64,000 bases of DNA from Strigops habroptila (lineage: Eukaryota; Chordata; Aves; Psittaciformes; Psittacidae): NCBI RefSeq assembly GCF_004027225.2, contig NC_044289.2, positions 11,417,567 to 11,481,566 of the forward strand, read 5' to 3'. Within the stretch, counting starts at the first letter, position 1. Each line of letters begins with the position of its first letter. The notes beneath the pieces are model-generated. The model was not told the DNA's origin. It was given only the letters and a program-made list of their open reading frames with translations, and did not search any database. This document shows positions 39,546 to 64,000 of this stretch, one piece after another. Position numbers and translations under genes: made by a program.

Positions 39546-39893
39546 CAGAAAATCCCAATGTGGATCAGCCCTGGAAAGAAGCAGCACAAGGTCATTTCAG
39601 TGAGGCTACTGATGGTCATTGTGTTTGCCACACGGTGGGAAGAGCGGGACTCTGCCGCGGGGCTCATCCCTGGCTGGGACTGGGAGCCGGGTTCTACGAG
39701 ATGAGACTTGGCTCACGTGTCCCAAAGGCAGCGCAGGGCAGCGCGGTGGTGGCGCCTGTGCCACCAGGGCGAGGCCACCGAGCACCGTGTCCCTGCAGCG
39801 GGGCCATCGCACACAGCCCCAGCCCAGCGCGGCAGCAGCCGTCCCTCCCTCAGTGGCAGCAGGGGAAGGGGGCACGTGCTGCCTTACCACTCC

Positions 39894-40501
39894 TCAGTCC
39901 ACCTCCATCACCTCCTCCTCCTCCGCATCCACCTCCATCGCCTCCTCCTCCTCCACCTCCACGTCCACGTCCATCTCCTCCTCCTCTTGCAGCCCCACTT
40001 TGGTCCTGCTGGCAGCCTCATCCTCCAGCTCCAGCACGTGTTGGAACAGCCTAAGGCAGAAGGCAAACATAAGAGTGCATTGGTGCTGCCCAGACCAGCC
40101 GAGCGCAGCTGTGGGACAGGGGTGTGGGCACCCCGGTCCCCTCTCGCCGCCCGGGCAGAGCCGTGGGGCGCTGGGGCCCCGGGCACATCCCCATCAGGAG
40201 CTGTCGGGAAGCAGCACCCACCAGCTCTGACAGGCTGGCGCGTGCAGCTGGAGGATCCTGCGCCTGCTGCGCTTCAGCACCTTGCGGAGCGGTAAGGGCT
40301 TGAGGACCTGCCAGAGCAGAGAGGGCAGGGGTGAGCGGCCGTGCTCCCTGCCTGCGGGACCGGGGCACAGACCTGGTCCCGCACCTGCCTCGGCACCCAC
40401 CGGCTCCTTACTCTCCGTATGCAGCTCTTTGTGTCCTCGCTCCGGCAAGGGCTGCGCTCGGCCACCAGCAGGACGAAGGAGGTCTTCTTTTGGGGCTGCA
40501 T
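39894..40501 (-). CDS. TP53TG5: TP53TG5-like protein, array copy 1
   Basis: Coding exons 40412-40501, 40222-40307 and 39894-40050 join at GT-AG sites (GTAAGG and GTGGGT donors) in phases 0 and 2 to give 110 residues. Exon 2 encodes a basic core, VLKPLPLRKVLKRSRRRI then LQLHAPACQS. By my recall this aligns with the core of human TP53TG5 (VLK-L-L-K-LK-S--RRI--LH--A--CW), a poorly understood p53-inducible gene expressed mainly in testis. Exon 3 encodes a Glu/Asp tail with EEEE-MEVD repeats. Strand and place next to SYS1 match human TP53TG5. Exon 1 has ERSPCRSEDTKSCIRR, and the tail has EEEEVMEVD where others have A. AATAAA at 39350-39355 (minus) ends the transcript. The cores may bind nucleic acid or protein; function is unknown. 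The mammalian C-terminal half is absent. Confidence 0.62.
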
Positions 40502-41576
40502 TTGGTGGTGCCACAATAGAATTCAAGGGTCAGGGAATAAGGGAGTGGGGCAGGGACCAATCGGAAAAAGCTGGGACTAGGAAAGAAGGGCTGGGACCAG
40601 GGCAGAAGGGATTGGCATAAACAAGCGGGAGCACGGGAGAAGTGTGGGGTTCAGGGACGAAGGGCTGTGTTGTTCTCTGGGCACGGGCGGTTGCCGGTGT
40701 AACGCAGCCGCGACATCACACCGGAGTTCCGGAACTTCTGCACATCAGGGGATGGGAACGAGCCCTGAAGTGGCTGTGGGTTTATGGGGCACATTGGGCA
40801 ATCGTTACGTTACCCCCTGGGATGACGGAGACACACTTTTCTGCTTAAACAGTCAATAAAATGGGTGAAGGCTGCGCTGGCCAACTGGTTGTGGCCAAGA
40901 ACATCTCCTTTGCTCTTTCACTGTCCTGCAAGCAGTGAGTGAGCGACCTGAGCAGTGCTGATGTGCTGCAGGTGGGATGCAGCAACGGGGGTGGAATTCA
41001 GCCCTGCCCGACCTCAAGATGCCAGCGGCAGCAGGACACGGCTGCGTGGCCGCGTCCTAGAGCCGGGTCCTTCACGGGTGAGCCCGTGCGAGAACCTGCA
41101 CCCCACGCGCATCGAAGGCAGCGAGGGCAGGACAAGATGTGCTGCCAGCAGTGTGTGGCAAGGGCTGCCTGCTTCAGGAGGGCTCTGCAACAGCTCCGGA
41201 CCTTGAACTCTTATGTCCCCGTCTGCGGTAACATGCACACCTCATGCATGCAGTAACACCCCCTGCACCCCATCACCGTTCTCCTGCTGGCAGCTCCCCC
41301 TCCCTCCCTGCTTGCCAGGTCCCCACATGTCAGCACCAGCGGGTGACCCTGGCCCTGGCTGCAGCTACCAAGCTCTGGTGTTCCCAACCAGCTCTGGCCC
41401 CAGACCCTCTTCCATCCTGCGGGACCGGGACCAAGGGTCTCCCAGGGAGGAGGGGAGGGAGAGAGGTAAAAGATTTGGTTTGGGAAGCAGGATCCAACAG
41501 GATGCTGGGTGCAGGCTGCTCCCTGCAGCGACCTGGCCCTGGGCACACTGTGATTCTGTTATTCCATGACTGATTC
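40502..41576 (-). other. Spacer and upstream region of array gene copy 1 (pattern repeats in each unit)
   Basis: About 1.1 kb between the gene's start codon and the next unit's neuritin fragment. It should contain the promoter. Visible are a CCAAT box at 40557-40561 (copies 1 and 5-8 only), a 12-base perfect palindrome AGTTCCGGAACT at 40725-40736 carrying ETS-type cores on both strands, and a C/T-rich tract near 41281-41320. No convincing TATA box is seen. The equivalent spacers follow every copy. Confidence 0.5.
40725..40736. promoter_or_regulatory. Conserved palindrome upstream of each array gene
   Basis: AGTTCCGGAACT is a perfect 12-base palindrome found about 225 bases upstream of the start codon. 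It is present in the corresponding place of all the complete spacers I compared. It contains CCGGAA on both strands, the core bound by ETS factors. Binding is inferred from the motif alone. Confidence 0.35.
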
Positions 41577-41678
41577 CTCATCTGTGGCTGTGTTTTCCCC
41601 CAGCTTGAGGAGCAACCTAGGAAGCCTTGCTCAGCGCTGGTGCAGGCGGTGCCCAATGGCAGCACCAGACAAGGGGCC
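41577..41678 (-). pseudogene. Decayed neuritin exon 2, unit 2
   Basis: Same fragment as in unit 1 with the shared frameshift. This copy and those in units 4 and 10 read CAACCTAGGAAGCC on the plus strand where the others have CAGCCCGAGAAG. Confidence 0.85.
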
Positions 41679-42518
41679 CTGCATCCACCGAGGGGTCGGT
41701 ATGAGCGCCCAGGTCTCTGGTCCCTTGCCCGTGCCCAGCCGTGCCCGCAGCTGCAGAGAGCCTGCAAGAGCCGCTCTGCTGGGGCAGGGTGCCCGTGTGA
41801 GGACAGTTGGGGTGCCCCCACACCCAATGCCAGCATCCCTGTCCCCCTCCACCCCTGGGAGCCTGGAGCAAGTGGACGCCATTTGACTGCCAACCGCACG
41901 TGTGCTCACACCAAAGGCAAAGAGAGACTGAGTCAGAAAAACATTAAGAAATGTATTTACAAAACAACAAACAAAACAACAAACCAAAAAACACAACAAA
42001 CTACAACTCCTCTACTTAACACTACAACTATTCTACTTAACACTGCAACTATTCTTCGAAAAACAACAATCTTCAAAAAAACCAACAATCTTCTGCAAAA
42101 CCCAACAGTCTTCTAAGAAAAACAATCTTCTACAAAAAACAACTCTTCTCTATAAAACTCCATCCATTGCCGCCAATTCCCGATGTAGATGAGCCCTGGA
42201 AAGAAGCAGCGCAAGGTCATTTCAGTGAGGCTACTGATGGTCATTGTGTTTGCCACACGCTGGGAAGAGCGGGACTCTGCCGCAGGGCTCATCCCTGGCT
42301 GGGGCTGGGAGCCGGGTTCTACGAGATGAGACTTGGCTCACGTGTCCCAAAGGCAGCGCAGGGCAGCGCGGTGGTGGCGCTTGTGCCACCAGGGCGAGGC
42401 CACCGAGCACCGTGTCCCTGAAGCGGGGCAGCCGCACACAGCCCCAGCCCAGCACGGCAGCAGCCGTCCCTCCCTCAGTGGCAGCAGGGGAAGGGGGCAC
42501 GTGCTGCCTTACCACTCC

Positions 42519-43126
42519 TCAGTCCACCTCCATCGCCTCCTCCTCCTCCGCATCCACCTCCATCGCCTCCTCCTCCTCCACCTCCACGTCCACGTCCATC
42601 TGCTCCTCCTCTTGCAGCCCCACTTTGGTCCTGCTGGCAGCCTCATCCTCCAGCTCCAGCACATGTTGGAAAAGCCTAAGGCAAAAGGCAAGCAGAAGAG
42701 TGCATTGGTGCTGCCCAGACCAGCCAAGCACAGCTGTGAGACGGGGGTGTGGGCACCCCGGTCCCCTCTCGCTGCCCGGGCAGAGCCGTGGGGCGCTGGG
42801 GCCCCGGGCACATCCCCATCAGGAGCTGTCGGGAAGCAGCACCCACCAGCTCTGACAGGCTGGCGCGTGCAGCTGGAGGATCCTGCGCCTGCTGCGCTTC
42901 AGCACCTTGCGGAGCGGTAAGGGCTTGAGGACCTGCCAGAGCAGAGAGGGCAGGGGTGAGCGGCCGTGCTCCCTGCCTGCGGGACCCGGGCACAGACCCG
43001 GTCCCGCACCTGCCTCGGCACCCACCAGCCCCTTACTCTCTGTAGGCAGCTCTTCTTGTCCTCGCTCCGGCAAGGGCTGGGCTTGGCCACCAGCAGGACG
43101 AAGGAGGTCTTCTTGTGGGGCTGCAT
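42519..43126 (-). CDS. TP53TG5: TP53TG5-like protein, array copy 2
   Basis: Exons 43037-43126, 42847-42932 and 42519-42675; 110 residues. Exon 1 differs from copy 1 by H4, K15, P16, K24, L28 and Q29. Exon 2 is identical. The tail has EEEQMDVDVEV, where other copies have EEEEM. The 3' UTR is of the second type: the poly(A) hexamer reads AATACA (41952-41957, minus) instead of AATAAA, so 3' end formation may be weaker or moved. Confidence 0.6.
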
Positions 43127-44201
43127 TTGGAGGTACCAATCTGGGATCCAAGGGACAGGGAATAAGGGAGTGGGGCTGAGAGCAAGCGGAAAAAGCTGGG
43201 ACTAGGAATGAAGGGCTGGGACCAGGAATGTAGGGATTGGTGGACAAAAGCAGGAGCACGGGAGAAGTGTGGGGTTCAGGGACGAAGGGCTGTGTTGTTC
43301 TCTGGGCACGGGCGGTTGCCGGTGTAACGCAGCCACGACATCACACCGGAGTTCCGGAACTTCTGCGCATCAGGGGATGGGGACGAGGCCTGAAGGGGCT
43401 GTGGGTTTATGGGGCACATTGGGCAATAGTTATGTTACCCCCTGAGATGAGAGAGACACGCTTTTCTGCTTAAATAGTCAATAAAATGGGTGAAGGCTGC
43501 GCTGGCCAACTGGTCGCGGCCAAGAACATCTCCTTTGCTCTTTCACTGTCCCGCAAGCAGTGAGTGAGTGACCTGAGCAGTGCTGATGTGCTGCAGGTGG
43601 GATGCAGCCACGGGGGTGGAATTCAGCCCAGCCTGACCTCAGGATGCCAGCGGCAGCAGGACATGGCTGCGTGGCTATGTCCTAGAGCCGGCTCGCTCAT
43701 GGGTGAGCCCGTGCAAGAACCTGCGCTCCATGTGCAGCAAAGGCAGCGAGGGCAGGACAAGATGTGCTGCCAGCAGCGTGTGGCGAGGGCTGCCTGCTTC
43801 AGGAGGGCTCTGCAACAGCTCCGGGCCCTGAACTAGCATGTCCCCATGTGCATTTGCACGCACACCTCATACATGCAGCAGCTCCCTCTGCACCCCGTCA
43901 CCATTCTCCTGCTGGCAGCTCCCCCTCCCTCCCTGCTTGCCAGGTCCCCACATGCCAGCACCAGCGGGTGACGCTGGCCCTGGCTGCAGCTACCAAGCTC
44001 TGGTGTTCCCAACCAGCTCTGGCCCCAGACCCTCTTCCATCCTGCGGGACCGGGACCAAGGGTCTCCCAGGGAGGAAGGGAGGGAAGGAGGTCAAAGACT
44101 TGGTTTGGGCAGGTGAATCCAACAGGGTGCTTGGTGCAGGCTGCTCCCTGCAGCGACCGGGCCCTGGGCACACTGTGATTCTGTGATTCCATGACTGATT
44201 C

Positions 44202-44303
44202 CTCATCTGTGGCCGTGTTTTCCCCCAGCTTGAGGAGCAGCCCGAGAAGTCTTGGTCAGCGCTGGCGCAGGCGGCGCCCGATGGCAGCACCAGACAAGGG
44301 GCC
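44202..44303 (-). pseudogene. Decayed neuritin exon 2, unit 3
   Basis: Same fragment and frameshift. It shares GGCGCAGGCGGCGCCCGATG with unit 5. Confidence 0.85.
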
Positions 44304-45122
44304 CTGCATCCACCGAGGGGGCGGTGTGAGCACCCAGAACTTTGGTCCCTCGCCCATGCCCAGCCGTGCCCGCAGCTGCAGAGAGCCTGAAAGAGCCGCT
44401 CTGCCATGGCAGGGAGCCCGTGTGAGGACAGTTGGGGTGCCTCCGCACCCAGCGCCAGCATCCCTGTCCCCCTCCAGCCCTGGGAACCCAGAGCAAGTGG
44501 ACACCACTTGTCTGCCAACGCCGCGTGTGCTCACAATAAAGGCAAAGAGAGACTGAGTCAGAAAAACATCAAGAAATTTATTTACAAAACAACAAACAAG
44601 AGGACAACACAACAAAACAACACAACAAAACACAACAACCAACAACTCTTCTACTTAATACTAAAACACTATTACTTAAATCTACAACTCTTCTACATAG
44701 AACAACAATCTTCTAAAAAAAAACCCAATCTTCTGTGAAAACAACAACTCTTCTCCAAAGAACTCCATAACCGCCAGAAAATCCCAATGTAGATCAGCCC
44801 TGGAAAGAAGCAGCACAAGGTCATTTCAGTGAGGCTACTGATGGTCATTGTGTTTGCCACACGCTGGGAAGAGCGGAACTCTGCCGCGGGGCTCATCCCT
44901 GGCTGGGGCTGGGAGCCGGGTTCTACGCGATGAGACTTGGCTCACGTGTCCCAAAGGCAGCGCAGGGCAGCGCGGTGGTGGCGCCTGTGCCACCAGGGCG
45001 AGGTCACCGGGCACCGTGTCCCTGCAGCGGGGCCATCGCACACAGCCCCAGCTCAGCGCGGCAGCAGGCGTCCCTCCCTCAGTGGCAGCAGGGGAAGGGG
45101 GCACGTGCTGCCTTACCACTCC

Positions 45123-45730
45123 TCAGTCCACCTCCATCGCCTCCTCCTCCTCCGCATCCACCTCCATCGCCTCCTCCTCCTCCACCTCCACATCGACTTC
45201 CATCTCCTCCTCCTCTTGCAGCCCCACTTTGGTCCTGCTGGCAGCCTCATCCTCCAGCTCCAGCACATGTTGGAAAAGCCTAAGGCAAAAGGCAAGCAGA
45301 AGAGTGCATTGGTGCTGCCCAGACCAGCCAAGCACAGCTGTGAGACGGGGGTGTGGGCACCCCGGTCCCCTCTCGCTGCCCGGGCAGAGCCGTGGGGCGC
45401 TGGGGCCCCGGGCACATCCCCATCAGGAGCTGTCGGGAAGCAGCACCCACCAGCTCTGACAGGCTGGCGCGTGCAGCTGGAGGATCCTGCGCCTGCTGCG
45501 CTTCAGCACCTTGCGGAGCGGTAAGGGCTTGAGGACCTGCCAGAGCAGAGAGGGCAGGGGTGAGCGGCCGTGCTCCCTGCCTGCGGGACCCGGGCACAGA
45601 CCCGGTCCCGCACCTGCCTCAGCACCCACCAGCTCCTTACTCTCCGTAGGCAGCTCTTTTTGTCCTCGCTCCGACAAGGGCTGGGCTCGGCCACCAGCAG
45701 GACAAAAGTGCTCTTCTTTTGGGGCTGCAT
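45123..45730 (-). CDS. TP53TG5: TP53TG5-like protein, array copy 3
   Basis: Exons 45641-45730, 45451-45536 and 45123-45279; 110 residues. Exon 1 has the rarer KKSTFVLLVAEPSPCRSEDK form. The tail begins EEEEMEVDVEV. AATAAA lies at 44577-44582 on the minus strand. The 5' flank reads GGAGGTACCAAGATCGGATC on the plus strand, shared only with copy 9. Confidence 0.62.
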
Positions 45731-46789
45731 TTGGAGGTACCAAGATCGGATCCAAGGGGCAGGGAATAAGGGAGTAGGGCTGGGAGGAAACGGAAAAAGC
45801 TGGGAGTCAGAGAGGAGCGCTGGGAACAGGGCAGAAGGGATCGGCATACACAAATGGGAGCACGGGAGAAGTGTGGGGTTCAGGGGCGAAGGGCTGTGTT
45901 GTTCTCTGGGCACGGGCGGTTGCCGGTGTAACGCAGCCGCAACATCACACCGGAGTTCCGGAACTTCTGCGCATCAGGGGATGGGGACGAGCCCTGAAGG
46001 GGCTGCGGCTTCATGGGGGACATTCGGCAACTGTTACGTTACCCCCTGAGACGAGAGAGACACACTTTTCTGCTTAAATAGTCAATAAAATGGGTGAAGG
46101 CTGCGCTGGCCAACTGGTCGCGGCCAAGAACATCTCCTTTGCTCTTTCACTGTCCCGCAAGCAGTGAGTGAGCGACCTGAGCAGTGCTGATGTGCTGCAG
46201 GCGGGATGCAGCAACGGGGGTGGAATTCAGCCCAGCCTGACCTCAGGATGCAGGACACGGCTGCGTGGCCACGTCTTAGAGCCGGGTCCTTCACGGGTGA
46301 GCCCGTGCGAGAACCTGCGTCCCACGTGCAGCGAAGGCAGCGAGGGCAGGACAAGATGTGCTGCCAGCAGTGCGTGGCGAGGGCTGCCTGCTGGACTAGG
46401 GCTCTGCAACAGCTCCGGACCCTGAACTAGCATGTCCCAGTCTGCATTTGCACGCACACCTCATGCACAAAGTAGCACCCTCTGCACCCCGTCACCATTC
46501 TCCTGCTGGCAGCTCCCCCTCCCTCCCCGCTTGCCAGGTCCCCACGGGTCAGCACCAGCGGGTGACCCTGGCTGCAGCTACCGAGCTCTGGTGTTCCCAG
46601 CCAGCTCTAGCCCCAGACCCTCTTCCATCCTGCGGGACCAGGACCAAGGGTCTCCCAGGGAGGAGGGGAGGGAAGGGGGTCAAAGACTTGGTTTGGGCAG
46701 CAGGATCCAACAGGATGCTGGGTGCAGGCTGCTCCCTGCAGCGACCTGGCCCTGGGCACACTGTGATTCTGTGAATCCATGACTGATTC

Positions 46790-46891
46790 CTCATCTGTGG
46801 ACATGTTTTCCCCCAGCTTGAGGAGCAACCTAGGAAGCCTTGCTCAGCGCTGGTGCAGGCGGTGCCCAATGGCAGCACCAGACAAGGGGCC
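46790..46891 (-). pseudogene. Decayed neuritin exon 2, unit 4
   Basis: Same fragment and frameshift; near-identical to the unit 10 copy, including TGTGGACATG at its right end. Confidence 0.85.
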
Positions 46892-47740
46892 CTGCATCCA
46901 CCGAGGGGTCGGTATGAGCGCCCAGATCTCTGGTCCCTTGCCCGTGCCCAGCCGTGCCCGCAGCTGCAGAGAGCCTGCAAGAGCCGCTCTGCTGGGGCAG
47001 GGTGCCCGTGTGAGGACAGTTGGGGTGCCCCCACACCCAATGCCAGCATCCCTGTCCCCCTCCACCCCTGGGAGCCTGGAGCAAGTGGACGCCATTTGAC
47101 TGCCAACCGCACGTGTGCTCACACCAAAGGCAAAGAGAGACTGAGTCAGAAAAACATTAAGAAATGTATTTACAAAACAACAAACAAAACAACAAACCAA
47201 AAAACACAACAAACTACAACTCCTCTACTTAACACTACAACTATTCTACTTAACACTGCAACTATTCTTCGAAAAACAACAATCTTCAAAAAAACCAACA
47301 ATCTTCTGCAAAACCCAACAGTCTTCTAAGAAAAACAATCTTCTACAAAAAACAACTCTTCTCTATAAAACTCCATCCATTGCCGCCAATTCCCGATGTA
47401 GATGAGCCCTGGAAAAAAGCAGCACAAGGTCGTTTCAGTGAGGCTACTGATGGTCATTGTATTTGCCCCAGCCCTGGGACACGCTGGGAAGAGCGGAACT
47501 CTGCCGCAGGGCTCATCCCTGGCGGGGCTGGAGCCGGGCTCTACACGATGAGACTTGGCTCACGTGTCCCAAAGGCAGTGCAGGGCAGCGCGGTGGTGGC
47601 GCCTGTGCCACCACGATGAGGCCACCGGGCACCGTGTCCCTGAAGCGGGGCAGCCGCACACAGCCCCAGCCCAGCGCGGCAGGAGGCGTCCCTCCCTCAG
47701 TGGCAGCAGGGGATGGGGGCACGTGCTGCCTTACCACTCC

Positions 47741-48345
47741 TCAGTCCACCTCCATCGCCTCCTCCTCCTCCGCATCCACCTCCATCGCCTCCTCCTCCTC
47801 CACCTCCACATCGACTTCCATCTCCTCCTCCTGCAGCCCCACTTTGGTCCTGCTGGCAGCCTCATCCTCCAGCTCCAGCACATGTTGGAAAAGCCTAAGG
47901 CAAAAGGCAAGCAGAAGAGTGCATTGGTGCTGCCCAGACCAGCCAAGCACAGCTGTGAGACGGGGGTGTGGGCACCCCGGTCCCCTCTCGCCGCCCGGGC
48001 AGAGCCGTGGGGCGCTGGGGCCCCGGGCACATCCCCATCAGGAGCTATCGGGAAGCAGCACCCACCAGCTCTGACAGGCTGGCGCGTGCAGCTGGAGGAT
48101 CCTGCGCCTGCTGCGCTTCAGCACCTTGCGGAGCGGTAAGGGCTTGAGGACCTGCCAGAGCAGAGAGGGCAGGGGTGAGCGGCCGTGCTCCCTGCCTGCG
48201 GGACCCGGGCACAGACCCGGTCCCGCACCTGCCTCGGCACCCACCAGCCCCTTACTCTCTGTAGGCAGCTCTTTGTGTCCTCGCTCCGGCAAGGGCTGGG
48301 CTTGGCCACCAGCAGGACGAAGGAGGTCTTCTTGTGGGGCTGCAT
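47741..48345 (-). CDS. TP53TG5: TP53TG5-like protein, array copy 4
   Basis: Exons 48256-48345, 48066-48151 and 47741-47894; 109 residues because one Glu codon is missing at the start of the acidic tail (LQEEEMEVD). This is a clean three-base loss that keeps the frame. Exon 1 has H4, K15, T24 and Q29. The 3' hexamer is the variant AATACA at 47165-47170. The 3' flank also has an extra CAGCCCTGGGA insertion near 47470 not seen in most units. Confidence 0.6.
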
Positions 48346-49420
48346 TTGGAGGTACCAATCTGGGATCCAAGGGACAGGGAATAAGGGAGTAGGGCTGGGA
48401 GGAAACGGAAAAAGCTGGGACTAGGAATGAAGGGCTGGGACCAGGAATGTAGGGATTGGTGGACAAAAGGAGGAGCACGGGAGAAGTGTGGGGTTCAGGG
48501 ACGAAGGGCTGTGTTGTTCTCTGGGCACGGGCGGTTGCCGGTGTAACGCAGCCACGACATCACACCGGAGTTCCGGAACTTCTGCGCATCAGGGGATGGG
48601 GACGAGGCCTGAAGGGGCTGTGGGTTTATGGGGCACAATGGGCAATCGTTATGTTACCCCCTGAGATGAGAGAGACACGCTTTTCTGCTTAAATAGTCAA
48701 TAAAATGGGTGAAGGCTGCGCTGGCCAACTGGTTGCGGCCAAGAACATCTCCTTTGCTCTTTCACTGTCCCGCAAGCAGTGAGTGAGTGACCTGAGCAGT
48801 GCTGATGTGCTGCAGGCGGGATGCAGCCACGGGGGTGGAATTCAGCCCAGCCTGACCTCAGGATGCCAGCGGCAGCAGGACACGGCTGCGTGGCTATGTC
48901 CTAGAGCCGGCTCGCTCATGGGTGAGCCCGTGCAAGAACCTGCGCTCCATGTGCAGCAAAGGCAGCGAGGGCAGGACAAGATGTGCTGCCAGCAGCGTGT
49001 GGCGAGGGCTGCCTGCTTCAGGAGGGCTCTGCAACAGCTCCAGGCCCTGAACTAGCATGTCCCCATGTGCATTTGCACGCACACCTCATACATGCAGCAG
49101 CTCCCTCTGCACCCCGTCACCATTCTCCTGCTGGCAGCTCCCCCTCCCTCCCCGCTTGCCAGGTCCCCACATGCCAGCACCAGCGGGTGACCCTGGCCCT
49201 GGCTGCAGCTACCAAGCTCTGGTGTTCCCAGCCAGCTCTGGCCCCAGACCCTCTTCCATCCTGCGGGACCGGGACCAAGGGTCTCCCAGGGAGGAAGGGA
49301 GGGAAGGAGGTCAAAGACTTGGTTTGGGCAGGTGAATCCAACAGGGTGCTTGGTGCAGGCTGCTCCCTGCAGCGACCTGGCCCTGGGCACACTGTGATTC
49401 TGTTATTCCATGACTGATTC

Positions 49421-49522
49421 CTCATCTGTGGCCGTGTTTTCCCCCAGCTTGAGGAGCAGCCCGAGAAGTCTTGGTCAGCGCTGGCGCAGGCGGCGCCCGA
49501 TGGCAGCACCAGACAAGGGGCC
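49421..49522 (-). pseudogene. Decayed neuritin exon 2, unit 5
   Basis: Same fragment and frameshift; close to the unit 3 copy. Confidence 0.85.
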
Positions 49523-50341
49523 CTGCATCCACCGAGGGGTCGGTGTGAGCACCCAGAACTTTGGTCCCTCGCCCATGCCCAGCCGTGCCCGCAGCTGCAG
49601 AGAGCCTGAAAGAGCCGCTCTACCAGGGCAGGGAGCCCGTGTGAGGACAGTTGGGGTGCCTCCGCACCCAGCGCCAGCATCCCTGTCCCCCTCCAGCCCT
49701 GGGAACCCAGAGCAAGTGGACACCACTTGTCTGCCAACGCCGCGTGTGCTCACAATAAAGGCAAAGAGAGACTGAGTCAGAAAAACATCAAGAAATTTAT
49801 TTACAAAACAACAAACAAGAGGACAACACAACAAAACAACACAACAAAACACAACAACCAACAACTCTTCTACTTAATACTAAAACGCTATTACTTAAAT
49901 CTACAACTCTTCTACATAGAACAACAATCTTCTAAAAAAAAACCCAATCTTCTGTGAAAACAACAACTCTTCTCCAAAGAACTCCATAACCGCCAGAAAA
50001 TCCCAATGTAGATCAGCCCTGGAAAGAAGCAGCACAAGGTCATTTCAGTGAGGCTACTGATGGTCATTGTGTTTGCCACACGCTGGGAAGAGCGGGACTC
50101 TGCCGCAGGGCTCATCCCTGGCTGGGGCTGGGAGCCGGGTTCTACGAGATGAGACTTGGCTCACGTGTCCCAAAGGCAGCGCAGGGCAGCGCGGTGGTGG
50201 CGCTTGTGCCACCAGGGCGAGGCCACCGAGCACCGTGTCCCTGCAACGGGGCCATCGCACACAGCCCCAGCCCAGCGCGGCAGCAGGCGTCCCTCCCTCA
50301 GTGGCAGCAGGGGAAGGGGGCACGTGCTGCCTTACCACTCC

Positions 50342-52024: not shown

Positions 52025-52126
52025 CTCATCTGTGGCCGTGTTTTCCCCCAGCTTGAGGAGCAGCCCGAGAAGTTTTGGTCAGCTCTGGCGCAGGCGGTGC
52101 CCGATGGCAGCACCAGTCCAGGAGCG
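52025..52126 (-). pseudogene. Decayed neuritin exon 2, unit 6
   Basis: Same fragment and frameshift. It reads CAGTCCAGGAGCGCTGCATC, shared with units 7-9 and close to unit 1. Confidence 0.85.
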
Positions 52127-52943: not shown

Positions 52944-53551
52944 TCAGTCCACCTCCATCGCCTCCTCCTCCTCCGCATCCACCTCCATCGCCTCCTCCTC
53001 CTCCACCTCCACGTCCACGTCCATCTCCTCCTCCTCTTGCAGCCCCACTTTGGTCCTGCTGGCAGCCTCATCCTCCAGCTCCAGCACATGTTGGAAAAGC
53101 CTAAGGCAAAAGGCAAGCAGAAGAGTGCATTGGTGCTGCCCAGACCAGCCGAGCACAGCTGTGAGACGGGGGTGTGGGCACCCCGGTCCCCTCTCGCTGC
53201 CCGGGCAGAGCCGTGGGGCGCTGGGGCCCCGGGCACATCCCCATCAGGAGCTGTCGGGAAGCAGCACCCACCAGCTCTGACAGGCTGGCGCGTGCAGCTG
53301 GAGGATCCTGCGCCTGCTGCGCTTCAGCACCTTGCGGAGCGGTAAGGGCTTGAGGACCTGCCAGAGCAGAGAGGGCAGGGGTGAGCGGCCGTGCTCCCTG
53401 CCTGCGGGACCCGGGCACAGACCCGGTCCCGCACCTGCCTCGGCACCCACCGGCCCCTTACTCTCCGTAGGCAGCTCTTTGTGTCCTCGCTCCGGCAAGG
53501 GCTGGGCTTGGCCACCAGCAGGACGAAGGAGGTCTTCTTGTGGGGCTGCAT
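52944..53551 (-). CDS. TP53TG5: TP53TG5-like protein, array copy 6
   Basis: Exons 53462-53551, 53272-53357 and 52944-53100; 110 residues. Exon 1 has H4, K15, P16, T24, L28 and R29; the tail is EEEEMDVDVEV. AATAAA lies at 52400-52405. From here to copy 9 the period is exactly 2602 bases. Confidence 0.62.
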
Positions 53552-54626
53552 TTGGTGGTGCCACGATAGATTTCAAGGGTCAGGGAATAAGGGAGTGGGG
53601 CAGGGACCAATCGGAAAAAGCTGGGACTAGGAAAGAAGGGCTGGGACCAGGGCAGAAGGGATTGGCATAAACAAGCGGGAGCACGGGAGAAGTGTGGGGT
53701 TCAGGGACGAAGGGCTGTGTTGTTCTCTGGGCACGGGCGGTTGCCGGTGTAACGCAGCCGCGACATCACACCGGAGTTCCGGAACTTCTGCACATCAGGG
53801 GATGGGAACGAGCCCTGAAGTGGCTGTGGGTTTATGGGGCACATTGGGCAATCGTTACGTTACCCCCTGGGATGACGGAGACACACTTTTCTGCTTAAAC
53901 AGTCAATAAAATGGGTGAAGGCTGCGCTGGCCAACTGGTTGTGGCCAAGAACATCTCCTTTGCTCTTTCACTGTCCTGCAAGCAGTGAGTGAGCGACCTG
54001 AGCAGTGCTGATGTGCTGCAGGTGGGATGCAGCAACGGGGGTGGAATTCAGCCCTGCCCGACCTCAAGATGCCAGCGGCAGCAGGACACGGCTGCGTGGC
54101 CGCGTCCTAGAGCCGGGTCCTTCACGGGTGAGCCCGTGCGAGAACCTGCACCCCACGCGCATCGAAGGCAGCGAGGGCAGGACAAGATGTGCTGCCAGCA
54201 GTGTGTGGCAAGGGCTGCCTGCTTCAGGAGGGCTCTGCAACAGCTCCGGACCTTGAACTCTTATGTCCCCGTCTGCGGTAACATGCACACCTCATGCATG
54301 CAGTAACACCCCCTGCACCCCATCACCGTTCTCCTGCTGGCAGCTCCCCCTCCCTCCCTGCTTGCCAGGTCCCCACATGTCAGCACCAGTGGGTGACCCT
54401 GGCCCTGGCTGCAGCTACCAAGCTCTGGTGTTCCCAACCAGCTCTGGCCCCAGACCCTCTTCCATCCTGCGGGACCGGGACCAAGTGTCTCCCAGGGATG
54501 AAGGGAGGGAGAGAGGTAAAAGATTTGGTTTGGGAAGCAGGATCCAACAGGATGCTGGGTGCAGGCTGTTCCCTGCAGCCACCTGGCCCTGGGCACACTG
54601 TGATTCTGTTATTCCATGACTGATTC

Positions 54627-54728
54627 CTCATCTGTGGCCGTGTTTTCCCCCAGCTTGAGGAGCAGCCCGAGAAGTTTTGGTCAGCTCTGGCGCAGGCGGT
54701 GCCCGATGGCAGCACCAGTCCAGGAGCG
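54627..54728 (-). pseudogene. Decayed neuritin exon 2, unit 7
   Basis: No difference from the unit 6 copy seen by eye. Confidence 0.85.
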
Positions 54729-55545
54729 CTGCATCCACTGAGGGGTCGGTGTGAGCGCCCAGATCACTGGTCCCTCGCCCGTGCCCAGCCCTGCCCGCAG
54801 CTGCAGAGAGCCTGAAAGAGCCGCTCTGCCAGGGCAGGGAACCCATGTAAGGACAGTTGGGGTGTCCCCGCACCCAGCGCCAGCACCCCTGTGCCCCTCC
54901 AGCCCTGGGAACCCAGAGCAAGTGGACACCACTTGTCTGCCAACACCGCGTGTGCTCACAATAAAGGCAAAGAGAGACTGAGTCAGAAAAACATCAAGAA
55001 ATTTATTTACAAAACAACAAACAAGAGAACAACACAACAAAACAACACAACAAAACACAACAACCAACAACTCTTCTACTTAATACTAAAACCCTATTAC
55101 TTAAATCTACAACTCTTCTACATAGAACAACAATCTTCTAAAAAAAAACAATCTTCTGTGAAAACAGCAACTCTTCTCCAAAACACTCCATAACCGCCAG
55201 AAAATCCTGATGTAGATGAGCCCTGGAAAGAAGCAGCGCAAGGTCATTTCAGTGAGGCTACTGATGGTCATTGTGTTTGCCACACGCTGGGAAGAGCGGG
55301 ACTCTGCCGCAGGGCTCATCCCTGGCTGGGGCTGGGAGCCGGGTTCTACGAGATGAGACTTGGCTCACGTGTCCCAAAGGCAGCGCAGGGCAGCGCGGTG
55401 GTGGCGCTTGTGCCACCAGGGCGAGGCCACCGAGCACCGTGTCCCTGAAGCGGGGCAGCCGCACACAGCCCCAGCCCAGCACGGCAGCAGCCGTCCCTCC
55501 CTCAGTGGCAGCAGGGGAAGGGGGCACGTGCTGCCTTACCACTCC

Positions 55546-56153
55546 TCAGTCCACCTCCATCGCCTCCTCCTCCTCCGCATCCACCTCCATCGCCTCCTCC
55601 TCCTCCACCTCCACGTCCACGTCCATCTCCTCCTCCTCTTGCAGCCCCACTTTGGTCCTGCTGGCAGCCTCATCCTCCAGCTCCAGCACATGTTGGAAAA
55701 GCCTAAGGCAAAAGGCAAGCAGAAGAGTGCATTGGTGCTGCCCAGACCAGCCGAGCACAGCTGTGAGACGGGGGTGTGGGCACCCCGGTCCCCTCTCGCT
55801 GCCCGGGCAGAGCCGTGGGGCGCTGGGGCCCCGGGCACATCCCCATCAGGAGCTGTCGGGAAGCAGCACCCACCAGCTCTGACAGGCTGGCGCGTGCAGC
55901 TGGAGGATCCTGCGCCTGCTGCGCTTCAGCACCTTGCGGAGCGGTAAGGGCTTGAGGACCTGCCAGAGCAGAGAGGGCAGGGGTGAGCGGCCGTGCTCCC
56001 TGCCTGCGGGACCCGGGCACAGACCCGGTCCCGCACCTGCCTCGGCACCCACCAGCCCCTTACTCTCTGTAGGCAGCTCTTTTTGTCCTCGCTCCGGCAA
56101 GGGCTGGGCTTGGCCACCAGCAGGACGAAGGAGGTCTTCTTTTGGGGCTGCAT
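55546..56153 (-). CDS. TP53TG5: TP53TG5-like protein, array copy 7
   Basis: Exons 56064-56153, 55874-55959 and 55546-55702; 110 residues. Exon 1 has Q4, K15, K24 and Q29; the tail equals that of copy 6. AATAAA lies at 55002-55007. The predicted protein is the same as copy 8. Confidence 0.62.
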
Positions 56154-57228
56154 TTGGTGGTGCCACGATAGATTTCAAGGGTCAGGGAATAAGGGAGTGG
56201 GGCAGGGACCAATCGGAAAAAGCTGGGACTAGGAAAGAAGGGCTGGGACCAGGGCAGAAGGGATTGGCATAAACAAGCGGGAGCACGGGAGAAGTGTGGG
56301 GTTCAGGGACGAAGGGCTGTGTTGTTCTCTGGGCACGGGCGGTTGCCGGTGTAACGCAGCCGCGACATCACACCGGAGTTCCGGAACTTCTGCACATCAG
56401 GGGATGGGAACGAGCCCTGAAGTGGCTGTGGGTTTATGGGGCACATTGGGCAATCGTTACGTTACCCCCTGGGATGACGGAGACACACTTTTCTGCTTAA
56501 ACAGTCAATAAAATGGGTGAAGGCTGCGCTGGCCAACTGGTTGTGGCCAAGAACATCTCCTTTGCTCTTTCACTGTCCTGCAAGCAGTGAGTGAGCGACC
56601 TGAGCAGTGCTGATGTGCTGCAGGTGGGATGCAGCAACGGGGGTGGAATTCAGCCCTGCCCGACCTCAAGATGCCAGCGGCAGCAGGACACGGCTGCGTG
56701 GCCGCGTCCTAGAGCCGGGTCCTTCACGGGTGAGCCCGTGCGAGAACCTGCACCCCACGCGCATCGAAGGCAGCGAGGGCAGGACAAGATGTGCTGCCAG
56801 CAGTGTGTGGCAAGGGCTGCCTGCTTCAGGAGGGCTCTGCAACAGCTCCGGACCTTGAACTCTTATGTCCCCGTCTGCGGTAACATGCACACCTCATGCA
56901 TGCAGTAACACCCCCTGCACCCCATCACCGTTCTCCTGCTGGCAGCTCCCCCTCCCTCCCTGCTTGCCAGGTCCCCACATGTCAGCACCAGTGGGTGACC
57001 CTGGCCCTGGCTGCAGCTACCAAGCTCTGGTGTTCCCAACCAGCTCTGGCCCCAGACCCTCTTCCATCCTGCGGGACCGGGACCAAGTGTCTCCCAGGGA
57101 TGAAGGGAGGGAGAGAGGTAAAAGATTTGGTTTGGGAAGCAGGATCCAACAGGATGCTGGGTGCAGGCTGTTCCCTGCAGCCACCTGGCCCTGGGCACAC
57201 TGTGATTCTGTTATTCCATGACTGATTC

Positions 57229-57330
57229 CTCATCTGTGGCCGTGTTTTCCCCCAGCTTGAGGAGCAGCCCGAGAAGTTTTGGTCAGCTCTGGCGCAGGCG
57301 GTGCCCGATGGCAGCACCAGTCCAGGAGCG
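57229..57330 (-). pseudogene. Decayed neuritin exon 2, unit 8
   Basis: No difference from the unit 6 and 7 copies seen by eye. Confidence 0.85.
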
Positions 57331-58147
57331 CTGCATCCACTGAGGGGTCGGTGTGAGCGCCCAGATCACTGGTCCCTCGCCCGTGCCCAGCCCTGCCCGC
57401 AGCTGCAGAGAGCCTGAAAGAGCCGCTCTGCCAGGGCAGGGAACCCATGTAAGGACAGTTGGGGTGTCCCCGCACCCAGCGCCAGCACCCCTGTGCCCCT
57501 CCAGCCCTGGGAACCCAGAGCAAGTGGACACCACTTGTCTGCCAACACCGCGTGTGCTCACAATAAAGGCAAAGAGAGACTGAGTCAGAAAAACATCAAG
57601 AAATTTATTTACAAAACAACAAACAAGAGAACAACACAACAAAACAACACAACAAAACACAACAACCAACAACTCTTCTACTTAATACTAAAACCCTATT
57701 ACTTAAATCTACAACTCTTCTACATAGAACAACAATCTTCTAAAAAAAAACAATCTTCTGTGAAAACAGCAACTCTTCTCCAAAACACTCCATAACCGCC
57801 AGAAAATCCTGATGTAGATGAGCCCTGGAAAGAAGCAGCGCAAGGTCATTTCAGTGAGGCTACTGATGGTCATTGTGTTTGCCACACGCTGGGAAGAGCG
57901 GGACTCTGCCGCAGGGCTCATCCCTGGCTGGGGCTGGGAGCCGGGTTCTACGAGATGAGACTTGGCTCACGTGTCCCAAAGGCAGCGCAGGGCAGCGCGG
58001 TGGTGGCGCTTGTGCCACCAGGGCGAGGCCACCGAGCACCGTGTCCATGAAGCGGGGCAGCCGCACACAGCCCCAGCCCAGCACGGCAGCAGGCGTCCCT
58101 CCCTCAGTGGCAGCAGGGGAAGGGGGCACGTGCTGCCTTACCACTCC

Positions 58148-58755
58148 TCAGTCCACCTCCATCGCCTCCTCCTCCTCCGCATCCACCTCCATCGCCTCCT
58201 CCTCCTCCACCTCCACGTCCACGTCCATCTCCTCCTCCTCTTGCAGCCCCACTTTGGTCCTGCTGGCAGCCTCATCCTCCAGCTCCAGCACATGTTGGAA
58301 AAGCCTAAGGCAAAAGGCAAGCAGAAGAGTGCATTGGTGCTGCCCAGACCAGCCGAGCACAGCTGTGAGACGGGGGTGTGGGCACCCCGGTCCTCTCTCG
58401 CTGCCCGGGCAGAGCCGTGGGGCGCTGGGGCCCCGGGCACATCCCCATCAGGAGCTGTCGGGAAGCAGCACCCACCAGCTCTGACAGGCTGGCGCGTGCA
58501 GCTGGAGGATCCTGCGCCTGCTGCGCTTCAGCACCTTGCGGAGCGGTAAGGGCTTGAGGACCTGCCAGAGCAGAGAGGGCAGGGGTGAGCGGCCGTGCTC
58601 CCTGCCTGCGGGACCCGGGCACAGACCCGGTCCCGCACCTGCCTCGGCACCCACCAGCCCCTTACTCTCTGTAGGCAGCTCTTTTTGTCCTCGCTCCGGC
58701 AAGGGCTGGGCTTGGCCACCAGCAGGACGAAGGAGGTCTTCTTTTGGGGCTGCAT
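58148..58755 (-). CDS. TP53TG5: TP53TG5-like protein, array copy 8
   Basis: Exons 58666-58755, 58476-58561 and 58148-58304; 110 residues, same predicted protein as copy 7. AATAAA lies at 57604-57609. A few private substitutions lie in intron 2 and the 3' UTR (GTCCATGAAGC near 58043 and GTCCTCTCTC near 58391), so it is a real separate copy and not an assembly duplicate of copy 7. Confidence 0.62.
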
Positions 58756-59830
58756 TTGGTGGTGCCACGATAGATTTCAAGGGTCAGGGAATAAGGGAGT
58801 GGGGCAGGGACCAATCGGAAAAAGCTGGGACTAGGAAAGAAGGGCTGGGACCAGGGCAGAAGGGATTGGCATAAACAAGCGGGAGCACGGGAGAAGTGTG
58901 GGGTTCAGGGACGAAGGGCTGTGTTGTTCTCTGGGCACGGGCGGTTGCCGGTGTAACGCAGCCGCGACATCACACCGGAGTTCCGGAACTTCTGCACATC
59001 AGGGGATGGGAACGAGCCCTGAAGTGGCTGTGGGTTTATGGGGCACATTGGGCAATCGTTACGTTACCCCCTGGGATGACGGAGACACACTTTTCTGCTT
59101 AAACAGTCAATAAAATGGGTGAAGGCTGCGCTGGCCAACTGGTTGTGGCCAAGAACATCTCCTTTGCTCTTTCACTGTCCTGCAAGCAGTGAGTGAGCGA
59201 CCTGAGCAGTGCTGATGTGCTGCAGGTGGGATGCAGCAACGGGGGTGGAATTCAGCCCTGCCCGACCTCAAGATGCCAGCGGCAGCAGGACACGGCTGCG
59301 TGGCCGCGTCCTAGAGCCGGGTCCTTCACGGGTGAGCCCGTGCGAGAACCTGCACCCCACGCGCATCGAAGGCAGCGAGGGCAGGACAAGATGTGCTGCC
59401 AGCAGTGTGTGGCAAGGGCTGCCTGCTTCAGGAGGGCTCTGCAACAGCTCCGGACCTTGAACTCTTATGTCCCCGTCTGCGGTAACATGCACACCTCATG
59501 CATGCAGTAACACCCCCTGCACCCCATCACCGTTCTCCTGCTGGCAGCTCCCCCTCCCTCCCTGCTTGCCAGGTCCCCACATGTCAGCACCAGTGGGTGA
59601 CCCTGGCCCTGGCTGCAGCTACCAAGCTCTGGTGTTCCCAACCAGCTCTGGCCCCAGACCCTCTTCCATCCTGCGGGACCGGGACCAAGTGTCTCCCAGG
59701 GATGAAGGGAGGGAGAGAGGTAAAAGATTTGGTTTGGGAAGCAGGATCCAACAGGATGCTGGGTGCAGGCTGTTCCCTGCAGCCACCTGGCCCTGGGCAC
59801 ACTGTGATTCTGTTATTCCATGACTGATTC

Positions 59831-59932
59831 CTCATCTGTGGCCGTGTTTTCCCCCAGCTTGAGGAGCAGCCCGAGAAGTTTTGGTCAGCTCTGGCGCAGG
59901 CGGTGCCCGATGGCAGCACCAGTCCAGGAGCG
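59831..59932 (-). pseudogene. Decayed neuritin exon 2, unit 9
   Basis: No difference from the unit 6-8 copies seen by eye, although the gene 5' flank of this unit is of another sub-type. Confidence 0.85.
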
Positions 59933-60749
59933 CTGCATCCACTGAGGGGTCGGTGTGAGCGCCCAGATCACTGGTCCCTCGCCCGTGCCCAGCCCTGCCC
60001 GCAGCTGCAGAGAGCCTGAAAGAGCCGCTCTGCCAGGGCAGGGAACCCATGTAAGGACAGTTGGGGTGTCCCCGCACCCAGCGCCAGCACCCCTGTGCCC
60101 CTCCAGCCCTGGGAACCCAGAGCAAGTGGACACCACTTGTCTGCCAACACCGCGTGTGCTCACAATAAAGGCAAAGAGAGACTGAGTCAGAAAAACATCA
60201 AGAAATTTATTTACAAAACAACAAACAAGAGAACAACACAACAAAACAACACAACAAAACACAACAACCAACAACTCTTCTACTTAATACTAAAACCCTA
60301 TTACTTAAATCTACAACTCTTCTACATAGAACAACAATCTTCTAAAAAAAAACAATCTTCTGTGAAAACAGCAACTCTTCTCCAAAACACTCCATAACCG
60401 CCAGAAAATCCTGATGTAGATGAGCCCTGGAAAGAAGCAGCGCAAGGTCATTTCAGTGAGGCTACTGATGGTCATTGTGTTTGCCACACGCTGGGAAGAG
60501 CGGGACTCTGCCGCGGGGCTCATCCCTGGCTGGGGCTGGGAGCCGGGTTCTACGAGATGAGACTTGGCTCACGTGTCCCAAAGGCAGCGCAGGGCAGCGC
60601 GGTGGTGGCGCTTGTGCCACCAGGGCGAGGCCACCGAGCACCGTGTCCCTGAAGCGGGGCAGCCGCACACAGCCCCAGCCCAGCACGGCAGCAGGCGTCC
60701 CTCCCTCAGTGGCAGCAGGGGAAGGGGGCACGTGCTGCCTTACCACTCC

Positions 60750-61357
60750 TCAGTCCACCTCCATCGCCTCCTCCTCCTCCGCATCCACCTCCATCGCCTC
60801 CTCCTCCTCCACCTCCACGTCCACGTCCATCTCCTCCTCCTCTTGCAGCCCCACTTTGGTCCTGCTGGCAGCCTCATCCTCCAGCTCCAGCACATGTTGG
60901 AAAAGCCTAAGGCAAAAGGCAAGCAGAAGAGTGCATTGGTGCTGCCCAGACGAGCCGAGCACAGCTGTGAGACGGGGGTGTGGGTACCCCGGTCCCCTCT
61001 CGCTGCCCGGGCAGAGCCGTGGGGCGCTGGGGCCCCGGGCACATCCCCATCAGGAGCTGTCGGGAAGCAGCACCCACCAGCTCTGACAGGCTGGCGCGTG
61101 CAGCTGGAGGATCCTGCGCCTGCTGCGCTTCAGCACCTTGCGGAGCGGTAAGGGCTTGAGGACCTGCCAGAGCAGAGAGGGCAGGGGTGAGCGGCCGTGC
61201 TCCCTGCCTGCGGGACCCGGGCACAGACCCGGTCCCGCACCTGCCTCAGCACCCACCAGCTCCTTACTCTCCGTAGGCAGCTCTTTTTGTCCTCGCTCCG
61301 ACAAGGGCTGGGCTCGGCCACCAGCAGGACAAAAGTGCTCTTCTTTTGGGGCTGCAT
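60750..61357 (-). CDS. TP53TG5: TP53TG5-like protein, array copy 9
   Basis: Exons 61268-61357, 61078-61163 and 60750-60906; 110 residues. Exon 1 and the 5' flank are those of copy 3 (KKSTFVLLVAEPSPCRSEDK), while the 3' part resembles copies 6-8, so this unit is a mosaic. AATAAA lies at 60206-60211. Confidence 0.62.
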
Positions 61358-62416
61358 TTGGAGGTACCAAGATCGGATCCAAGGGGCAGGGAATAAGGGA
61401 GTAGGGCTGGGAGGAAACGGAAAAAGCTGGGAGTCAGAGAGGAGCGCTGGGAACAGGGCAGAAAGGATCGGCATACACAAATGGGAGCACGGGAGAAGTG
61501 TGGGGTTCAGGGACGAAGGGCTGTGTTGTTCTCTGGGCACGGGCGGTTGCCGGCGTAACGCAGCCGCAACATCACACCGGAGTTCCGGAACTTCTGCGCA
61601 TCAGGGGATGGGGACGAGCCCTGAAGGGGCTGCGGCTTCATGGGGGACATTCGGCAACTGTTACGTTACCCCCTGAGACGAGAGAGACACACTTTTCTGC
61701 TTAAATAGTCAATAAAATGGGTGAAGGCTGCGCTGGCCAACTGGTCGCGGCCAAGAACATCTCCTTTGCTCTTTCACTGTCCCGCAAGCAGTGAGTGAGT
61801 GACCTGAGCAGTGCTGATGTGCTGCAGGCGGGATGCAGCAACGGGGGTGGAATTCAGCCCAGCCTGACCTCAGGATGCAGGACACGGCTGCGTGGCCACG
61901 TCTTAGAGCCGGGTCCTTCAAGGGTGAGCCCGTGCGAGAACCTGCGTCCCACGTGCAGCGAAGGCAGCGAGGGCAGGACAAGATGTGCTGCCAGCAGTCC
62001 GTGGCGAGGGCTGCCTGCTTCAGGAGGGCTCTGCAACAGCTCCAGGCCCTGAACTAGCATGAACCAGTCTGCATTTGCACGCACACCTCATGCACAAAGT
62101 AGCACCCTCTGCACCCCGTCACCATTCTCCTGCTGGCAGCTCCCCCTCCCTCCCCGCTTGCCAGGTCCCCACGGGTCAGCACCAGCGGGTGACCCTGGCT
62201 GCAGCTACCGAGCTCTGGTGTTCCCAGCCAGCTCTAGCCCCAGACCCTCTTCCATCCTGCGGGACCGGGACCAAGGGTCTCCCAGGGAGGAGGGGAGGGA
62301 AGGGGGTCAAAGACTTGGTTTGGGCAGCAGGATCCAACAGGATGCTGGGTGCAGGCTGCTCCCTGCAGCGACCTGGCCCTGGGCACACTGTGATTCTGTG
62401 AATCCATGACTGATTC

Positions 62417-62518
62417 CTCATCTGTGGACATGTTTTCCCCCAGCCTAAGGAGCAACCTAGGAAGCCTTGCTCAGCGCTGGTGCAGGCGGTGCCCAATGGC
62501 AGCACCAGACAAGGGGCC
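62417..62518 (-). pseudogene. Decayed neuritin exon 2, unit 10
   Basis: Near-identical to the unit 4 copy, with an extra change (CCTAAGGAGC for CTTGAGGAGC). Confidence 0.85.
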
Positions 62519-63368
62519 CTGCATCCACCGAGGGGTCGGTATGAGCGCCCAGATCTCTGGTCCCTTGCCCGTGCCCAGCCGTGCCCGCAGCTGCAGAGAG
62601 CCTGCAAGAGCCGCTCTGCTGGGGCAGGGTGCCCGTGTGAGGACAGTTGGGGTGCCCCCACACCCAATGCCAGCATCCCTGTCCCCCTCCACCCCTGGGA
62701 GCCTGGAGCAAGTGGACGCCATTTGACTGCCAACCGCACGTGTGCTCACACCAAAGGCAAAGAGAGACTGAGTCAGAAAAAACATTAAGAAATGTATTTA
62801 CAAAACAACAAACAAAACAACAAACCAAAAAACACAACAAACTACAACTCCTCTACTTAACACTACAACTATTCTACTTAACACTGCAACTATTCTTCGA
62901 AAAACAACAATCTTCAAAAAAACCAACAATCTTCTGCAAAACCCAACAGTCTTCTAAGAAAAACAATCTTCTACAAAAAACAACTCTTCTCTATAAAACT
63001 CCATCCATTGCCGCCAATTCCCGATGTAGATGAGCCCTGGAAAAAAGCAGCACAAGGTCGTTTCAGTGAGGCTACTGATGGTCATTGTATTTGCCCCAGC
63101 CCTGGGACACGCTGGGAAGAGCGGAACTCTGCCGCAGGGCTCATCCCTGGCGGGGCTGGAGCCGGGCTCTACGCGATGAGACTTGGCTCACGTGTCCCAA
63201 AGGCAGCGCAGGGCAGCGCGGTGGTGGCGCCTGTGCCACCACGATGAGGCCACCGGGCACCGTGTCCCTGAAGCGGGGCAGCCGCACACAGCCCCAGCCC
63301 AGCGCGGCAGCAGCCGTCCCTCCCTCAGTGGCAGCAGGGGAAGGGGGCACGTGCTGCCTTACCACTCC

Positions 63369-63990
63369 TCAGTCCACCTCCATCGCCTCCTCCTCCTCCG
63401 CATCCACCTCCATCGCCTCCTCCTCCTCCACCTCCACATCGACTTCCATCTCCTCCTCCTGCAAAGCCCCACTTTGGTCCTGCCTGGCAGCTCATGCCTC
63501 CAGCTCCAGCATGTGTTGGAAAAGGCCTAACCGGCAACAAGGCAAGCAGCAAGAGTGGCATTGTGCTGCCCAGACCAGCCAAGCACAGCTGTGAGACGGG
63601 GGTGTGGGCACCCCCGGTCCCCTCTCGCCGCCCGGGCAGAGCCGTGGGGCTCTGGGGCCCCGGGCACAATCCCCACTCAGGAGCTAATCGGGAAGCAGCA
63701 CCCACCCAGCTCTGACAGGCTGGCGCGTGCAAGCTGGAGGATCCTGCGCCTGCTTGCGCTTCAGCAACCTTGCGAGCGGTAAGGCTTTGAGGACGCCTGC
63801 CAGAGCAGAGAGGGCAGGGGTGAGCGGCCGTGCTCCCTGCCTGCGGGAACCCGGGCACAGACCCGGTCCCGCACCTTCTCGGACAGCCCACCAGCCCTTA
63901 CTCTCTGTAGGCAGCTCTTTGTGTCCTCGCTCCGACAAGGGCTGGGCTTGGCCACCAGCAGGACGAAGGAGGTCTTCTTGTGGGCTGCAT
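63369..63990 (-). pseudogene. TP53TG5: TP53TG5-like copy 10, frameshifted at the window edge
   Basis: Compared with the other nine copies, the span is 622 instead of 605-608 bases. One- to three-base indels occur in all three exons: a lost base right after the start codon region near 63984, an extra C at the exon 2 donor, two extra bases at its acceptor, and several in exon 3 from 63463. Substitutions are few. The pattern suits poor consensus at a contig end better than true decay, but decay cannot be excluded. Its 3' hexamer is AATACA (62793-62798). Confidence 0.6.
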
Positions 63991-64000
63991 TTTGGAGGTA

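Follow-up and report, generated by a model that had tools for sequence, protein, structure and literature searches.

The window analysed here is a stretch of 64,000 nucleotides (nt) from the genome of Strigops habroptila, corresponding to C13:11417567-11481566 on a contig of 16.5 Mb. Adjoining SYS1, it holds ten head-to-tail units of about 2.6 kb on the minus strand, each apparently carrying one small spliced gene. On the whole, we regard this array as the counterpart of TP53TG5 by position and most probably as its ortholog, multiplied in tandem between SYS1 and a DBNDD2-like gene and coding for a protein of about 110 amino acids (aa); we put the probability of this reading at roughly two in three. 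The starts of the ten units are spaced 2586-2631 nt apart, with pairwise identities of 89.5-99.9% over whole units, and the left edge of the array, near 38728, is a truncated unit. The first-pass annotation had proposed a multi-copy family between 39894 and 63990 in which each unit encodes the same small spliced protein. Both coordinates prove exact, 39894 being the end of the copy 1 stop codon and 63990 the ATG of copy 10, and the same predicted spliced frame (109-110 aa) is kept in nine of the ten copies. The array and its copies are as follows, in window positions:

38728..64000, minus strand: tandem array of ~2.6-kb units, left end truncated, extending past the window
39894..40501, minus strand: copy 1, 110 aa; exons 40501-40412, 40307-40222, 40050-39894
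42519..43126, minus strand: copy 2, 110 aa; exons 43126-43037, 42932-42847, 42675-42519
45123..45730, minus strand: copy 3, 110 aa; exons 45730-45641, 45536-45451, 45279-45123
47741..48345, minus strand: copy 4, 109 aa; exons 48345-48256, 48151-48066, 47894-47741
50342..50949, minus strand: copy 5, 110 aa; exons 50949-50860, 50755-50670, 50498-50342
52944..53551, minus strand: copy 6, 110 aa; exons 53551-53462, 53357-53272, 53100-52944
55546..56153, minus strand: copy 7, 110 aa; exons 56153-56064, 55959-55874, 55702-55546
58148..58755, minus strand: copy 8, 110 aa; exons 58755-58666, 58561-58476, 58304-58148
60750..61357, minus strand: copy 9, 110 aa; exons 61357-61268, 61163-61078, 60906-60750
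~63370..63990, minus strand: copy 10, frameshifted, adjoining a run of N

The frameshift of copy 10 is likelier to be a sequencing error at the contig end than the mark of a pseudogene, because 21 of the 22 insertion or deletion (indel) columns separating this copy from its most similar unit fall within 600 nt at the end of the window, and the genome reads N from the very next base. One-base indels are dense in 63370-64000, right up to the N run, as would be expected of a contig end that had not been polished rather than of decay.

Extent of the array and copy number

The N run (C13:11481567-11556353; 74,787 nt, or about 75 kb) interrupts the array, which resumes beyond it with 13 further complete exon sets, until unit sequence stops near 11.5916 Mb. 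Of the 23 exon sets visible in the main array, 20 are intact; the broken ones are R12 and the two sets next to the N run, copy 10 and R01. An identical exon 2 is shared by 22 of the 23. The 11.4 kb immediately preceding the N run aligns over its full length with the 11.4 kb immediately following it, at 99.3% identity, the best among the unit-wise shifts; in coordinates, window 52533-64000 matches the first 11447 nt after the run, as if two contig ends overlapped. A true overlap would count five exon sets twice and leave perhaps about 18 copies. Global alignment of the two flanking pieces, unlike a simple overlap, places a one-unit gap on either side, and the copies paired by the putative overlap differ in exon 1. 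In addition, 659 nt of the left flank (window 38070-38728) recur within the right-hand part of the array, at C13:11575189-11575847, with 99.85% identity, although many units of the array differ by several percent; either the block was duplicated recently or the assembly has duplicated it.

Predicted gene and protein

In all nine copies checked (copies 1-9), both introns have GT/AG ends and the joined exons would encode 110 aa, or 109 in copy 4. Exon 1 has 90 nt, intron 1 104, exon 2 86, intron 2 171, and exon 3 154-157 up to the stop; intron 1 is bounded by GTAAGG/CAG and intron 2 by GTGGGT/TAG. For copy 6 the predicted protein reads MQPHKKTSFVLLVAKPSPCRSEDTKSCLRR, then VLKPLPLRKVLKRSRRRILQLHAPACQSW, then LFQHVLELEDEAASRTKVGLQ with an acidic tail, so that a basic stretch forming the core is followed by a strongly acidic end. 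The predicted splice sites of unit 5 are good, not unique: scored with a splice-site matrix, the donors rank 4 and 5 among 153 GT (the first donor being counted twice by wrap-round) and the acceptors 11 and 9 among 203 AG. On the same matrix the top-scoring donor of this unit starts six bases past the stop and the top acceptors lie 0.3-0.4 kb further, and for this reason an additional 3' untranslated exon seems likely. A search of PDB sequences with the predicted protein gave one match, at E 0.7, which is taken as chance, and the viral contigs searched contained no relatives. Two frames on the plus strand, of 196-205 aa, were also considered and correspond to no Pfam family.

Upstream of the gene, a block 123-223 nt 5' of the ATG (for example window 51072-51172 in unit 5) has a diversity of 0.02, against 0.12 on its exon side and 0.04 on the other; it is recognisable in dispersed copies elsewhere in the genome and is a candidate promoter. 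In the four units scanned for regulatory motifs, RFX-like motifs number 2-6 per unit against a shuffle mean of 3.5 and are thus unsupported, and p53-like sites occur only in units 3 and 9, with none in units 1 and 5.

Gene order around the array

The other features at the locus are the following:

2669..2818, minus strand: last coding exon of SDC4, 90% over 50 aa to the human tail
26325..27814, plus strand: SYS1, coding exons ~26325-26489, 26963-27028 and 27578-27814, found with a human query (PF09801 at E 1.2e-29 in the last exon)
36259..38647, minus strand: scattered older unit fragments (36259-36310, 36748-36895, 37010-37095, 38506-38647)
C13:11600822-11601586, plus strand: Dysbindin-family exons (PF04440), on the far side of the array

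The order is SDC4 (minus), SYS1 (plus), array (minus) and Dysbindin-family gene (plus), the last being most likely DBNDD2. We take the human order to be SDC4, SYS1, TP53TG5 and DBNDD2, with TP53TG5 on the strand opposite to SYS1 and DBNDD2. The agreement with human in order and strand, as claimed in the first-pass annotation, is borne out by SDC4 and SYS1 before the array, and it holds on the other side too, with the Dysbindin-family gene past it. This is also consistent with a legend in which the block SYS1, TP53TG5, DBNDD2 is given for mammals and chicken (PMC3426482). A search between the array and the Dysbindin gene for a second TP53TG5, with a human query, gave no convincing match (best E 0.85).

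Dispersed relatives

Genome-wide searches cover the S. habroptila assembly (1.149 Gb, 89 contigs), and those with DNA and protein queries score the best candidates only. Among these, 33 DNA matches are found rather than a single copy, and the family is present at six places, namely the main array, three places on C13 at 8.85 Mb (four exon sets), 3.21 Mb (two) and 4.32 Mb (two), and the larger contigs C4 and C7, with one decayed copy each. Short fragments match on C1, C2, C9 and C78, and weak protein matches occur on C5, C8 and C12. Longer pieces of the dispersed C13 units cover most of the 2.6-kb unit, introns included, with about 76-81% identity, showing that these units are DNA duplications and not retrocopies. 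The start, the GT/AG of both introns and the frame are kept in six of the eight dispersed C13 exon sets; in 8.85a, regarded here as broken, intron 2 is gone and the exons have a net loss of four bases, and 8.85d lacks the acceptor AG. Splice sites and frame are accordingly intact in most copies (20 of 23 in the main array, 6 of 8 dispersed on C13, 0 of 2 on C4 and C7).

Similarity to TP53TG5

The relation to TP53TG5 was also examined by protein profile. The Pfam family TP53IP5 (PF15331; 217 profile positions, curated cut-off 27 bits) ranks first among Pfam families for the proteins of the main array and of the 8.85 Mb array. The profile search that had been suggested with the 110-residue protein gives E 0.016 for copy 1 and 0.0081 for copy 6, below the cut-off; the proposed identity as TP53TG5 is partly supported, by the rank of the family and by gene order on both sides, while no match attains the curated score. 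Exons 1 and 2 read on into intron 2 give E 7.6e-4, two partial forms of the main-array protein 0.0039 and 0.035, and the 8.85 Mb relative 0.0017 when spliced and 7.3e-4 when read on. The matches fall near profile positions 9-47, the N-terminal core, with only about 32-39 of the 217 positions aligned rather than the full length; in the spliced protein the match is at residues 25-60 and crosses the exon 1-2 junction. The core VLK-L-L-K-LK-S-RRI--LH is shared with human TP53TG5, at 54.5% over a 33-aa stretch that continues into intron 2. None of ten control proteins (nine shuffled sequences and the 67-aa form reversed) matches PF15331, one shuffle scoring 17.7 bits (E 0.0054) on another family. 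The proteins at 3.21 and 4.32 Mb give no PF15331 match (three of five proteins in one search, one of three in another). A six-frame PF15331 search of the whole genome lists one match, on C4, with 17.3 bits, E 2.79 and two TGA inside, and does not list the array. The profile alone would not find the array gene; position makes the case.

An upstream segment with the motif CWQHILSCPR (unit positions ~1903-2073, for example 41201-41091 on the minus strand) was considered as an extra exon. It matches human TP53TG5 at E 0.003 to 0.29 and nothing in Pfam; it is open in the 3.21, 4.32 and, except for the last residue, 8.85 Mb arrays, and has stops in C4 and C7. Its ratio of non-synonymous to synonymous differences (pN/pS) is 0.80 in frame against 0.82-1.05 in the five other frames, and it was rejected.

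Coding potential and alternative explanations

Between main-array and dispersed units, the pairwise ratio of non-synonymous to synonymous substitution (dN/dS) is 0.49-0.66, and in the head of exon 3 the variable codons of nine copies are three synonymous and none non-synonymous. Coding indels relative to four dispersed units (12+30, 6, 24 and 6 nt) are all in frame; the non-coding indels divisible by three in the same comparisons are 3 of 12, 1 of 10, 2 of 11 and 2 of 11. The in-frame indels count little, because the four units were chosen from intact ones and most of the indels lie in the triplet tail. In a rough neutral simulation of one lineage, the frame and the four splice dinucleotides are kept in 0.5-27% of runs over all settings, and in 0.6-7% at 14.7% divergence. 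Exon 2 is invariant in units 1-8, where the longest invariant run, 158 nt, lies over it (at most 97 nt in 2000 permutations); gene conversion is the best reading of this run, and selection may have contributed.

Several observations weigh against a coding TP53TG5 array. Purifying selection specific to the coding frame is not found by the codon substitution test, in which the spliced core of four groups has a pN/pS of 0.79 in the predicted frame, within the 0.59-1.34 spanned by the other five; for this reason the three-exon protein, which we consider likely, stays a prediction. Among dispersed units dN/dS is 1.14 and 1.86, exon 2 has pN/pS 1.87 in frame 0 among five groups (0.48 in another frame), the variable codons of exon 1 in nine copies are eight non-synonymous and two synonymous, and in exon 3 one non-synonymous codon is present beside three synonymous ones in 20 copies. 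Compared with 3.21a, exon 1 (16/90) and exon 3 (12/63) have diverged more than intron 1 (7/104). The introns of the homogenised block vary about as little (0.016 and 0.010) as exon 3 (0.012), so that low diversity may arise by gene conversion alone. Frameshifts are present in 8.85a, C4, R01, R12 and copy 10, and AlphaFold2 draws three helices without a confident fold (mean predicted local distance difference test score, pLDDT, 46.6). As to identity, no form reaches the PF15331 cut-off (best 20.1 of 27 bits), and the unrelated family TruD has E 0.013 on copy 6, mostly via the tail, against 0.0081 for PF15331; because of these two facts the putative orthology rests mainly on position.

The results of the codon test would suit a macrosatellite grown from TP53TG5, in which most or all copies are non-coding and the frames persist as the copies are young, GC-rich and gene-converted. 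The inclusion of introns in the homogenised block, the broken copies (copy 10, R01, R12, 8.85a, C4 and C7) and the long frames that GC-rich sequence carries on both strands point the same way, whereas the six dispersed exon sets with frame and four splice dinucleotides, to be compared with the 0.5-27% of the neutral simulation, argue for coding; these six are not independent, since tandem pairs are near-identical. We judge a non-coding macrosatellite unlikely. It is also conceivable, and compatible with orthology, that intron 2 is not spliced and exon 2 reads on, giving 135-146 residues from exon 2 in the dispersed arrays and a 67-aa protein in the main array, which lacks 19 nt of intron 2 relative to the dispersed arrays, its read-on frame meeting a stop. 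The unspliced frame is open through exon 3 in 3.21a/b, 4.32a/b and 8.85d, the last being the set without the AG acceptor; the first 90 nt of intron 2 have pN/pS 0.40 in frame 0 against 8.2 and 1.7, with eight synonymous and two other differences between 8.85b and C4, and the main-array read-on form scores 20.0 bits on PF15331 against 16.7 spliced. However, frame 0 does not stand out when intron 2 is taken as a whole (0.97 against 1.03 and 2.28), the long read-on forms score 16.1 and 18.5 bits against 18.9 spliced with none for 3.21a, 8.85b and C4 are out of frame before exon 3, and the signal emerged after many segments and frames had been inspected. Reading on is in our opinion unlikely for the present gene; to judge from these frames, exon 2 may formerly have been longer.

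That the array is not TP53TG5 at all, and instead an unrelated repeat gene adjoining SYS1 whose core resembles it by chance, we hold to be quite improbable. Such a chance resemblance would fit the sub-threshold PF15331 match, the relatives at 3.21 and 4.32 Mb that do not match the profile, the 17.3-bit match elsewhere in the genome with stops inside, and the shuffle that scored on another family. The match is nevertheless to the one family expected here, on the expected strand and between both expected neighbours, and E 2.79 at 17.3 bits becomes about 1.6e-4 when scaled from the genome to 64 kb, by an arithmetic estimate.

Proposed function and expression

If the array consists of amplified TP53TG5 genes, each 2.6-kb unit would be a complete small transcription unit, in which an upstream block of its own precedes three coding exons and, probably, a 3' untranslated exon. 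The product of about 110 aa would keep the basic core of TP53TG5 and have an acidic end. The copies would be kept alike, and their number altered, by unequal exchange and gene conversion, and in such numbers they would act as a dosage device. The array itself, its open frames, splice signals, gene order and homogenised exon-2 block are observed in the sequence; transcription, translation and a nuclear or chromatin-related role are predictions. Our tentative guess is that the product is a small protein associated with chromatin or RNA in the male germ line, which many copies might supply at high dose, male germ line expression being suggested by analogy with human only.

The testis bias mentioned in the first-pass annotation agrees with human data, where TP53TG5 is listed as an elongated-spermatid marker (PMC9713473). 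In birds, a chicken and a duck paper name TP53TG5 in muscle RNA sequencing (RNA-seq) data (PMC6221307, PMC10049352), an observation at odds with strict testis expression in birds. The same two papers show that a bird ortholog would not be new as had been supposed. A wider interpretation, possible but doubtful, is that on one small chromosome the TP53TG5 ortholog has grown into a fast-evolving family of several arrays, the main one and three or more smaller ones on the same contig. Its frame would have been reshaped, the mammalian C-terminal part being lost, an acidic tail gained and intron 2 used differently in different arrays, and the number of copies would be adjusted in the male germ line.

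Comparison with known systems

No description of a tandem TP53TG5 array was found in the part of the literature searched, subscription papers and genome annotation databases lying outside the search. Bird TP53TG5 itself being already known, only the tandem amplification and the short acidic-tailed form look new. TP53TG5 is a little-studied gene named after p53, and the array, if expressed, would offer a natural dosage experiment and a minimal core showing which part of the protein matters. In addition, where a bird genome is annotated with just one TP53TG5, an array may have been collapsed into it, and RNA-seq counts would then be distorted.

By description, tandem multi-copy germ-line genes such as Sdic and the Y ampliconic genes, and coding macrosatellites, have head-to-tail homogenised units as found here, with a copy number that is presumably variable; for the present array, expression and function are predictions. 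The chicken and duck TP53TG5 is a bird gene of the same name, seen in muscle RNA-seq; no tandem array is mentioned in the accessible parts of the two papers (PMC6221307, PMC10049352). Like the array, mammalian TP53TG5 is located between SYS1 and DBNDD2 on the strand opposite to both, as in human. The mammalian protein, of about 290 aa, has a long C-terminal part, in place of which the array protein of about 110 aa has an acidic tail. Finally, the mammalian gene is single, whereas here about 18-23 copies stand in tandem, with proteins scoring below the Pfam cut-off.

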